Part shown: positions 17,629 through 20,522 of the stretch, in pieces | How positions within the stretch are numbered: the stretch's first letter is position 1 | How the letters are laid out: every line of letters begins with the position of its first letter | Assembly (NCBI GenBank): GCA_016209865.1 | Contig: JACQVL010000333.1 | Coordinates: forward strand, 1-20,522 | From: Candidatus Latescibacterota bacterium | GTDB taxonomy: Bacteria; JAAXHH01; JACQVL01 | Direction of reading: 5' to 3' | Length of the DNA stretch: 20,522 nucleotides | The notes under the pieces: generated by a model | The model's database searches: none | What the model was told of the DNA's origin: nothing | The model's input: only the letters and a program-made list of their open reading frames with translations | Program-made: the position numbers and the translations under genes

Positions 17629-20522
17629 ATGGCCACCATGGAAACGACCAAAACAGGAGAGGCGATTCTCGCTCTCATTAAAGAGTTGCAGGATACTCAG
17701 CGGTTCAAAGACCTGAACTGGGAGGGCACGTTCGAGGATTACCTCGAAATCGTGCACCGTAACCCGCAAGTGGCGCGGACCGCCTTCCAGCGCATCTACG
17801 ACATGATCCTCTCCCACGGGACGGAGAAGATCACGGACGGGAAGGAAGAGATCATCCGGTACCGCTTCTTCATCGACCCGGAGATCGCAGGGGAGGACGC
17901 GGTCTTTGGCCTGGACCGCCAGTTGATGTACCTGGTGCATATGTTCAAATCCGCCGCCCGGCGGTACGGGATCGAAAAACGCGTCCTGCTCCTGCACGGC
18001 CCGGTCGGGAGCTCGAAGAGCACGATCGTCCGCCGGCTCAAGAAAGGGCTGGAAGAATACTCCCACACCGAGGAAGGGGCGGCCTACACGTTCGGCTGGC
18101 GCAAAGAGGAGAAGGACGGGACGGTCATGTATGTCGACTGTCCGATGCACGAAGAGCCGCTCCACCTGATCCCCCAGTCGATGCGCGCCCAGGCGCTGGG
18201 ACGCCTGAACGAAGGACGGCGTGGGGAGGAGAAGCTCGAGATCGAAGGCGACCTGTGCCCGTTCTGCCGGTTCATGTACAACGACCTGACCAGACGGTAC
18301 GAAGGCGACTGGACGCGGGTCGTGGAGCATATCCGCGTCCACCGGCTCATCCTGTCGGAGAAAGACCGGATCGGCATCGGGACGTTCCAGCCCAAGGACG
18401 AGAAGAACCAGGACTCGACGGAACTGACCGGGGACATCAACTACCGGAAGATCGCCGAATACGGGGCGGATTCCGACCCGAGGGCGTTCAACTTCGACGG
18501 CGAGTTCAACATCGCCAATCGGGGTCTGGTCGAGTTCATCGAAGTCCTCAAACTCGACGTCGCCTTCCTGTACGACCTGCTGGGCGCCTCGCAGGAACAT
18601 TCGATCAAGCCGAAGAAATTCTCTCAGATCGATATCGACGAGGTGATTATCGGGCATAGCGTCGCTGGTCCTACGCCCATCCTCTATCGCTACGAGGGGA
18701 CGCCAGGATGGACGACATTGGCGCAGTTGTATGAACGCTTCGCACACGACGCATCCGGACTCGAAATCCTGGCGTATGACTTTGACGACGGCCGGGCTTG
18801 CTGGACCCCGGTGAGGTCGCTCTTCCGCCACCGCTTCACGGGCAATTTGCTCACGACCGCGCAGAAGTGGGGAGCGGTTGAGACCACCCCGAACCACTCG
18901 ATTTATGGGCGTGACGGCCAGCCTTTCTATCCGGAAGATCGTCATGAGATCATGGCAGTACGCCATGCAGATGATCTGTTCGGGCCGGTCGAGGACATGA
19001 GTGAGGTCGCGGTTGTTGCCGGGATTGATGGTTTCGTGCAGGACGACGTGCACATGGCGGCTGGGGGAGGACGCATGACCCGCCCATGCCAGCCGGGATG
19101 GGCACGGCTCGATTTGCCACGGCACGCGACGGCGATCCAGGCGCTCGTCCACCCTCTTCATGATGCTGACGCGCTCAACGACCTGATCACGGTGTTGGTG
19201 TGGTACGCCACCGAGGGCCATGTGAACGGACGGAATGGTGGGATTGTGATCAGTCAAGCCAATCGTGAGGAACTGGAGCGAGTCCGTGCTGCCTATGCCC
19301 ATATTACGACCGGCAGGGGGGTGATTGACGAAGGGGCGCAGACCGATTCAGTCTGGCGGCTCTATCTCGGTTCGGAAGCGATCGCCCGGCTTGCCACGCA
19401 CCATTGCGGAGAGCATGCGGTCAACAAGCGGCTGCCCGATTTCATCTTCAGCCTCCCCCATCACTGTATCCGTCACGCGTTCGATGAATTGATGCGGACA
19501 GATGGCTCGCGCCGTCTCTCAGCGCAACTCGACCGGACGGCATCGTTAGAGTATCGAGCGCAATTCTTTGAGTTCAAGACCCTCTCCCCGATGTTAGCGG
19601 CTCAGGTCGGGACCCTGGCGACACTGCTCGGATATGATTACAGCGTCTATTACCAGGAACGACCGGATCGATCTCCGGTGTACCGCATCAGGTTCGTGTC
19701 GGGAACAGGGAAACGTGGCGGCCGCCATGATCGGTTCGAGGCTCATCTCCACACTCGCTCTGTGGAGAACGAGTGGGTCTATGATATTGAGTGTGTCGGA
19801 CTTCACAATTTCATCTGCGGGGTTGGCAACGTCGTCTGCCATAACACCAACGAGCCGGAATACCGGAAGCTCCAGAACGACGAGTTCATGGAGGCGCTCC
19901 GCGACCGGACGGCGAAGGTGGACATCCCGTACGTCACCCGGCTGTCGGACGAGATCAAGATCTACGACAAGGACTACAACCTGGACAAAGTGAAGGGGAA
20001 ACACATCGCCCCGCACACGATCGAGATGGCGGCGATGTGGACGGTGCTCACCCGGCTGGAAGAGCCGAAAGAAGCCCGGCTGACGATCCTCCAGAAGCTC
20101 AAACTGTACAACGGGAAGACCTTGCCGGGGTTCACCGAGGACAACATCAAAGAGTTGCGCGCCGAAGCCCCGCGCGAGGGGATGGAAGGCATCTCCCCCC
20201 GGTACATCCAGGACAAGATCTCCAACGCCCTCGTCAGCGATTTCGGCGAAGGGTGCGTCAACCCGTTCATGGTGCTGAACGAGCTCGAACACGGCCTGGA
20301 TCACCATTCCCTCATCACGAGCGAGGAGCAGAAGCGGCGGTACCGGGAACTGCTGACCGTCGTGAAGGAGGAGTACGAGGACATCGTGAAGAACGAGGTC
20401 CAGCGAGCGATCTCCGCGGACGAGGAGGCGATCGGGCGGCTCTGCGCGAACTACATCGACAACATCAAGGCGTACACCCAGAAGGAGAAGGTCAAGAACC
20501 GGTACACCGGGCAGGACGAGGA
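17629..20522 (+). CDS. prkA: PrkA serine protein kinase, intein-containing, 3' end outside window
   Basis: The visible part is 964 codons and still open at the window end. The N-extein (residues 1-343) is the PrkA AAA-like domain: Walker A is GPVGSSKS (124-131), followed by CPMHEEPLHLIP and a GDLCPFC pair. It reaches QIDIDEVIIGH. After the intein (344-739) the protein resumes TNEPEYRKLQNDEFMEALRDRT, then KIYDKDYNL and the start of the C-terminal kinase region through NRYTGQDEE. Removing the intein rejoins the conserved IGHTNEPEY. PrkA/YeaG proteins (about 640-690 residues) are serine kinases linked to stress and nitrogen-starvation responses in E. coli and to sporulation in Bacillus. GAAGGAGGG lies just before ATG 17629. 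A second ATG three codons on is possible. Confidence 0.93.
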   Translation, partial: MATMETTKTGEAILALIKELQDTQRFKDLNWEGTFEDYLEIVHRNPQVARTAFQRIYDMILSHGTEKITDGKEEIIRYRFFIDPEIAGEDAVFGLDRQLMYLVHMFKSAARRYGIEKRVLLLHGPVGSSKSTIVRRLKKGLEEYSHTEEGAAYTFGWRKEEKDGTVMYVDCPMHEEPLHLIPQSMRAQALGRLNEGRRGEEKLEIEGDLCPFCRFMYNDLTRRYEGDWTRVVEHIRVHRLILSEKDRIGIGTFQPKDEKNQDSTELTGDINYRKIAEYGADSDPRAFNFDGEFNIANRGLVEFIEVLKLDVAFLYDLLGASQEHSIKPKKFSQIDIDEVIIGHSVAGPTPILYRYEGTPGWTTLAQLYERFAHDASGLEILAYDFDDGRACWTPVRSLFRHRFTGNLLTTAQKWGAVETTPNHSIYGRDGQPFYPEDRHEIMAVRHADDLFGPVEDMSEVAVVAGIDGFVQDDVHMAAGGGRMTRPCQPGWARLDLPRHATAIQALVHPLHDADALNDLITVLVWYATEGHVNGRNGGIVISQANREELERVRAAYAHITTGRGVIDEGAQTDSVWRLYLGSEAIARLATHHCGEHAVNKRLPDFIFSLPHHCIRHAFDELMRTDGSRRLSAQLDRTASLEYRAQFFEFKTLSPMLAAQVGTLATLLGYDYSVYYQERPDRSPVYRIRFVSGTGKRGGRHDRFEAHLHTRSVENEWVYDIECVGLHNFICGVGNVVCHNTNEPEYRKLQNDEFMEALRDRTAKVDIPYVTRLSDEIKIYDKDYNLDKVKGKHIAPHTIEMAAMWTVLTRLEEPKEARLTILQKLKLYNGKTLPGFTEDNIKELRAEAPREGMEGISPRYIQDKISNALVSDFGEGCVNPFMVLNELEHGLDHHSLITSEEQKRRYRELLTVVKEEYEDIVKNEVQRAISADEEAIGRLCANYIDNIKAYTQKEKVKNRYTGQDE
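18658..19845 (+). mobile_element. PrkA intein with LAGLIDADG endonuclease (396 aa)
   Basis: A protein-splicing element in frame within prkA. It starts at Ser1 (SVAGPTPI, block A). Block B is ETTPNHSIYG with Thr77 and His80 in the TxxH motif. The first LAGLIDADG-like motif is LITVLVWYATEGHV (176-189, acid Glu186). Block D includes NKRLPDFI. The second motif is IRHAFDELMRTDGSRR (271-286, acid Asp282), and block H is FKTLSPMLAAQVGTLATLLGY. Block F is VYDIECVGLHNFICG (His383) and block G is GNVVCHN, ending His395-Asn396, with Thr as the first C-extein residue. Both endonuclease acids and all splicing residues are present, so splicing and homing may both be active. Codons look less GC-biased than in the exteins, which fits later acquisition. 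Confidence 0.93.

Follow-up and report, generated by a model that had tools for sequence, protein, structure and literature searches.

Inteins that combine a splicing domain with a LAGLIDADG homing endonuclease are known from several proteins. PI-PkoII of Thermococcus kodakarensis (PDB 2cw7) joins a splicing domain to an endonuclease with two LAGLIDADG motifs, and the endonuclease-containing VMA inteins (TliVMA, PhoVMA and PI-SceI), which reside in the catalytic subunit of the V-ATPase, have the same two-domain arrangement. Mycobacteriophage inteins provide a precedent for phage-borne elements (PMC5050341) and the DnaB intein one for conditional splicing (PMC6195587), in both cases in different hosts and proteins.

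Here, we analyzed a stretch of 20,522 nucleotides from a contig assigned to Candidatus Latescibacterota (hereafter the window), in which prkA is interrupted by a long insert. Among relatives of known structure, PI-PkoII is the closest to it in sequence and matches its fold over the full length, but the host protein is different, identity is only ∼19% and PI-PkoII is longer (537 aa). The VMA inteins also differ in host protein and show low identity, and the matched archaeal VMA structures were made with Cys1 replaced (C1A), whereas the PrkA insert begins with Ser1. The nearest relative found outside PrkA was an intein in the RfbB protein (dTDP-glucose 4,6-dehydratase) of two Anaerolineae (residues 86-464 of the RfbB frames of L243 and L244, genomes G732 and G618). 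It belongs to the same wider family and shares Ser1 and an HN end followed by Thr+1 with the PrkA insert (33-34% identity over 356 residues), but lies in another enzyme, between FAAE and THVDRS. This site is empty in the window's own rfbB product (2899-3924).

On the basis of the results below, we consider the insert to be a splicing-competent, horizontally moving class-1 homing intein with a nested, probably functional LAGLIDADG endonuclease (probability about 0.93). It would thus be an ordinary intein of a well-known kind in a host protein that is apparently unreported as an intein target. No PrkA intein was found in the titles and abstracts of the open-access papers searched, in agreement with the original prediction, which named no described case. 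PrkA would be a widely distributed addition to the targets of inteins, outside DNA replication and repair.

Host gene and insertion site

Two domain profiles identify the host protein as PrkA. AAA_PrkA (PF08298) matched the open reading frame with 297 bits (E-value 1.7e-88) in two pieces, resuming across the insert, and the PrkA C-terminal domain (PF06798) scored 168 bits. A phmmer comparison with the PrkA structure 9xip gave an E-value of 1.7e-228, and the best stretch extended to query residue 344 (chain residue 355), directly ahead of the insert. The reading frame runs off the end of the contig, and a comparison of lengths indicated that other PrkA proteins extend ∼115 aa beyond the truncated C-extein. 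A free-standing HNH endonuclease reading frame (17143-17607, + strand; PF01844, 2.7e-8) with a weak IscB-like match is located directly upstream of prkA.

The insert occupies residues 344-739 of the prkA product, that is, exactly 396 codons in frame and without a stop, between GH and TNEPEY (Table 1). The break had been placed between GH and TNEP by the original prediction, correctly to the base. When the flanks were joined without the insert they read IIGHTNEPEYRKL, and the same unbroken form was present in homologs from several phyla, so that the conserved IGHTNEPEY is indeed restored by exact removal. The DNA of the intein-free site reads GGGCAT followed by ACCAACGAG, with the junction between the two.

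It had also been proposed that the site corresponds to the sensor-1 segment of AAA proteins. A position immediately preceding the sensor-1 residue, where strand beta-4 ends, is plausible, and the local pattern hhhGHTN (IIGHTN) fits AAA+ proteins, but two sequence tests against MoxR brought no confirmation: only the P-loop was aligned in a PrkA-MoxR profile alignment, and in a pairwise alignment assessed with shuffles the placement of the TN residues was not significant. An AlphaFold model of the whole precursor did not confirm the position either, and was set aside because it was poor around the junction (pLDDT 30-50).

Table 1 Features of the prkA locus (positions in the window)
Feature	Position	Strand	Evidence
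prkA open reading frame	17629-20520	+	Reading frame runs off contig end
prkA N-extein, 343 aa, AAA+ domain up to IDEVIIGH	17629-18657	+	PF08298, E 1.7e-88 (two stretches); PDB 9xip match
PrkA intein, 396 aa, splicing domain interrupted by LAGLIDADG homing endonuclease	18658-19845	+	Motifs, profiles, predicted fold
Intein block A, nucleophile Ser1 (SVAGPTPILYRYE)	18658-18696	+	Ser1 invariant in 22 aligned relatives
Intein block B, VETTPNHSIY (TPNH, 77-80; T77, H80)	18877-18906	+	T77 and H80 invariant in aligned relatives
LAGLIDADG motif 1 (LITVLVWYATEGH; LVWYATEGH; acid E186)	19183-19221	+	Nearly invariant; PF14528 partial match over 183-216, just below cut-off
LAGLIDADG motif 2 (AFDELMRTDGSRR; ELMRTDGS; acid D282)	19477-19515	+	Nearly invariant; aligned region of PI-PkoII
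Intein block F (VYDIECVGLHNFICGVG; LHNF, 382-385)	19777-19827	+	TIGR01443 above cut-off over 373-396
Intein block G and +1 residue, NVVCHN then T (VVCHN, 392-396; penultimate His395, terminal Asn396, Thr+1)	19828-19848	+	Sequence, family alignment
prkA C-extein (TNEPEYRKL...), 225 aa to contig end	19846-20520	+	PF08298, PF06798; homolog lengths

Splicing and endonuclease domains

All four intein blocks named in the original prediction (A, B, F and G, with Ser1, TPNH, LHNF and VVCHN) were recovered in the insert, and so were its two LAGLIDADG-like motifs, WYATEG (E186) and MRTDG (D282). Block F of the window copy reads VYDIECVGLHNF, a VYDIE..LHNF pattern. For the window copy alone, profile E-values were modest: intein_Cterm of NCBIfam (TIGR01443) passed its cut-off, but Intein_splicing (PF14890; 21.6 bits, curated cut-off 35.8) and intein_Nterm (TIGR01445; 18.4 bits, cut-off 24.5) were significant and yet below theirs, these curated cut-offs being thresholds for annotation rather than biological defining features of inteins. 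Because of such modest scores, the PrkA intein could be missed by standard annotation. Among 22 relatives, intein_Cterm and Intein_splicing matched 17 each and LAGLIDADG_3 matched 19. When a family profile was run against every sequence in the PDB, five matches were obtained, all of them inteins (PI-PkoII at 1.4e-15, TFIIB inteins, NrdJ-1 and Pab PolII).

The 396 residues were modeled with AlphaFold (pLDDT 87, pTM 0.90), with confidence over the splicing core; in keeping with a Hint fold, the top matches of the model in the PDB were inteins. Structure comparison with PI-PkoII gave a Z score of 28.8 over 353 residues (rmsd 4.3) and with TliVMA a Z score of 28.1 over 312 residues; the splicing part also matched many mini-inteins. 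For the LAGLIDADG fold of the model, Foldseek matches included I-DmoI and I-SceI together with intein endonucleases. The claim of an intein with a homing endonuclease in PrkA is thus supported by motifs, predicted fold and the PDB profile search, as well as by the empty-site homologs and the mobility described below.

From these residues we infer the following course. The gene would be translated as a single precursor including the intein, and the Hint domain would excise the 396 residues through an acyl shift at Ser1, transfer to Thr+1 and cyclization of Asn396 assisted by His395, joining GH to TNEPEY and presumably yielding intact PrkA. The endonuclease would be predicted to cleave prkA alleles that lack the intein, again at these codons, and repair would then copy the intein in. 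The insertion site is a codon-conserved segment of the ATPase, where imprecise loss would wreck the protein.

Distribution, mobility and selection

In total, 35 different relatives (the window copy included) were collected, all of them with the same boundaries, Ser1 and terminal Asn, which is far beyond chance. Scanning 84,980 species genomes with an alignment of the intein recovered 21 loci, every one in PrkA and at the identical codon junction. Cultured carriers include Thermus caliditerrae, T. tenuipuniceus, T. composti, Herpetosiphon llansteffanensis and H. geysericola. The insert was present in 11 of the 28 PrkA-bearing genomes of Thermaceae (one copy is frame-broken), in 13 of 91 genomes with PrkA in Chloroflexia and in 4 of 154 such genomes sampled from Planctomycetia. 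In Anaerolineae, it was found in three among 37 genomes matching the query, which itself includes the intein, so that some of the 37 match the intein part only. Empty sites occur in close relatives of carriers. The 'Gracilibacteria' label of L055 was not trusted, as the genome measures 5.8 Mb and its PrkA falls among those of Chloroflexia in the tree. Another intein, weakly similar to the query, was observed in an anaerobic-type ribonucleotide reductase (L245:609-4046, genome G479).

These counts bear on the reading of the segment as an ordinary PrkA domain, which the original prediction had named as the result that would speak against an intein: most PrkA proteins lack the segment, and the empty sites refute a domain. 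An artefact of assembly could be considered for the window, since its assembly is fragmented (356 contigs, 83% complete) and the contig may be mis-binned. Its ArgG (8626-9918) shows 35-38% identity to genomes of the assigned order and 58% to a genome of another group, which may reflect mis-binning or transfer of the gene. Mis-binning would change the organism but not the finding, and the same insert is present in the genomes of cultured Thermus and Herpetosiphon. Taken together, a domain or an artefact is hardly credible as an explanation.

Evidence for horizontal movement came from phylogeny. Across a phylogeny of 93 PrkA exteins, a minimum of 15 changes between presence and absence of the intein was counted, and the intein tree disagrees with that of the host protein. 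In Thermaceae, exteins with and without the intein interleave, and the inteins fall into two clades that differ far more than the exteins do. Identity of the window intein to those of Thermus, Planctomycetota and Chloroflexia reaches 71%, and the two Thermus clades are more distant from each other than the window intein is from the Thermus inteins (71%). Branch support, assessed by SH-aLRT only, was moderate, and for this reason no donor is named. The GC content at third codon positions (GC3) is 0.68 in the window intein versus 0.88 in its own extein, a contrast as would be expected for a fairly recent arrival; it is similar in Thermus clade I and absent in clade II.

Both domains are under selection. 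The omega values of the endonuclease region (about 0.1; 0.01-0.15 in five sets) were close to those of the splicing region and indicate purifying selection, and both LAGLIDADG acids are nearly invariant in the family alignment. Two shorter members (L206, 302 aa; L071, 338 aa) have lost these acids and kept Ser1, TPNH, HNF and the terminal Asn. They represent the opposite end of the homing cycle and indicate that splicing is required in its own right. The penultimate His is absent in five relatives (L062, L063, L064, L071 and L073), and thus not all members may splice efficiently; known inteins without this residue can still splice. Such signs of decay (L071, L206 and the five relatives without the His) raise the question whether the window copy, too, is a parasite that no longer splices, leaving a precursor that is dead or only partly active as PrkA. 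This seems improbable, however, because every splicing residue of the window copy is intact, the penultimate His included, the flanking PrkA sequence is intact and conserved and the splicing core is modeled with confidence. Consistent with the reading as a homing intein, the PrkA intein family would spread horizontally between phyla.

Phage-borne prkA and conditional splicing

PrkA relatives were encoded on 247 stretches of viral contigs. Two IMG/VR contigs, L074 (340 kb) and L089 (80 kb), carry prkA with an intein of the PrkA family at the same site, and L090, the nearest relative of L089, has an empty site. The PHROG matches of L074 include DNA topoisomerase, ribonucleotide reductase, a PhoH-like protein, clamp loader, endonuclease VII and RNA ligase. 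A third contig of 316 kb (L105, IMGVR_UViG_3300023199_000204) has an unrelated Cys1 intein (positions 5700-6926; SHN followed by S; PF14890, 1.7e-18) at a different site of PrkA, between GIGTFQPGDSK and SQSQSEL, and no relative of this second-site intein was found in IMG/VR. These contigs are putative viruses, as their status rests on IMG/VR and, for L074, on the genes listed. In the putative large phages L074, L083, L089, L090 and L105, prkA lies near a DnaB helicase gene and is followed by a yeaH-like (DUF444) gene. PrkA is also encoded by the Thermus phages phiYS40, Lalka8 and phiLo, in which the site is empty, and the intein had no match among annotated phage and plasmid records. From the viral contigs we infer that prkA-carrying phages are a plausible vehicle for the intein, and those with the same intein or a second, unrelated one make it possible to study whether inteins are carried from phylum to phylum by phages.

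It had further been suggested that splicing is required for an active stress kinase and could therefore serve as a conditional switch. The roles in stress and sporulation are supported, but the kinase label is disputed: PrkA is an AAA+ protein, and in a recent study that of Bacillus anthracis had negligible kinase and protease activity and yet was important in sporulation and osmotic stress (PMC13001217), so that the name 'serine protein kinase' is doubtful. Under a switch, splicing would proceed slowly until triggered by stress (heat, redox change or starvation), and the intein would time the appearance of active PrkA. The involvement of PrkA in stress and sporulation (PMC13001217, PMC4415436) and the stress-responsive inteins of DnaB and RadA (PMC6195587, PMC5790916) are in line with this idea, as are three cysteines close to the C-terminal splice junction (C379, C387 and C394) that are kept in most members. 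On the other hand, several members (L061, L064, L071 and L073) have other residues in place of the cysteines. The intein also has a patchy distribution, even between closely related species that share the gene, and such a pattern does not point to a control element that the host needs. We therefore regard such regulation as unlikely. Slightly less likely still is the broader version, in which the intein would be a natural heat- or redox-gated switch activating PrkA post-translationally, and phages with prkA and the same intein would exploit or spread this control. Thermus, being cultivable and transformable and polymorphic for the presence of the intein, would allow homing, splicing and a possible regulatory role to be tested directly, and a solved structure (9xip) is available for the intein-free type of Thermus PrkA.

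A different kind of interruption was observed in five IMG/VR proviruses with a Bacillaceae-like prkA (L099, L103, L104, L107 and L108). Here, the break in prkA lies ∼15 bases upstream of the position of the intein, and each of the five has a gene for a large serine recombinase (PF07508 and PF00239) that ends exactly at the junction. This looks like a prophage family integrated in prkA, a sporulation gene in Bacilli, and excision of these prophages during sporulation is possible.
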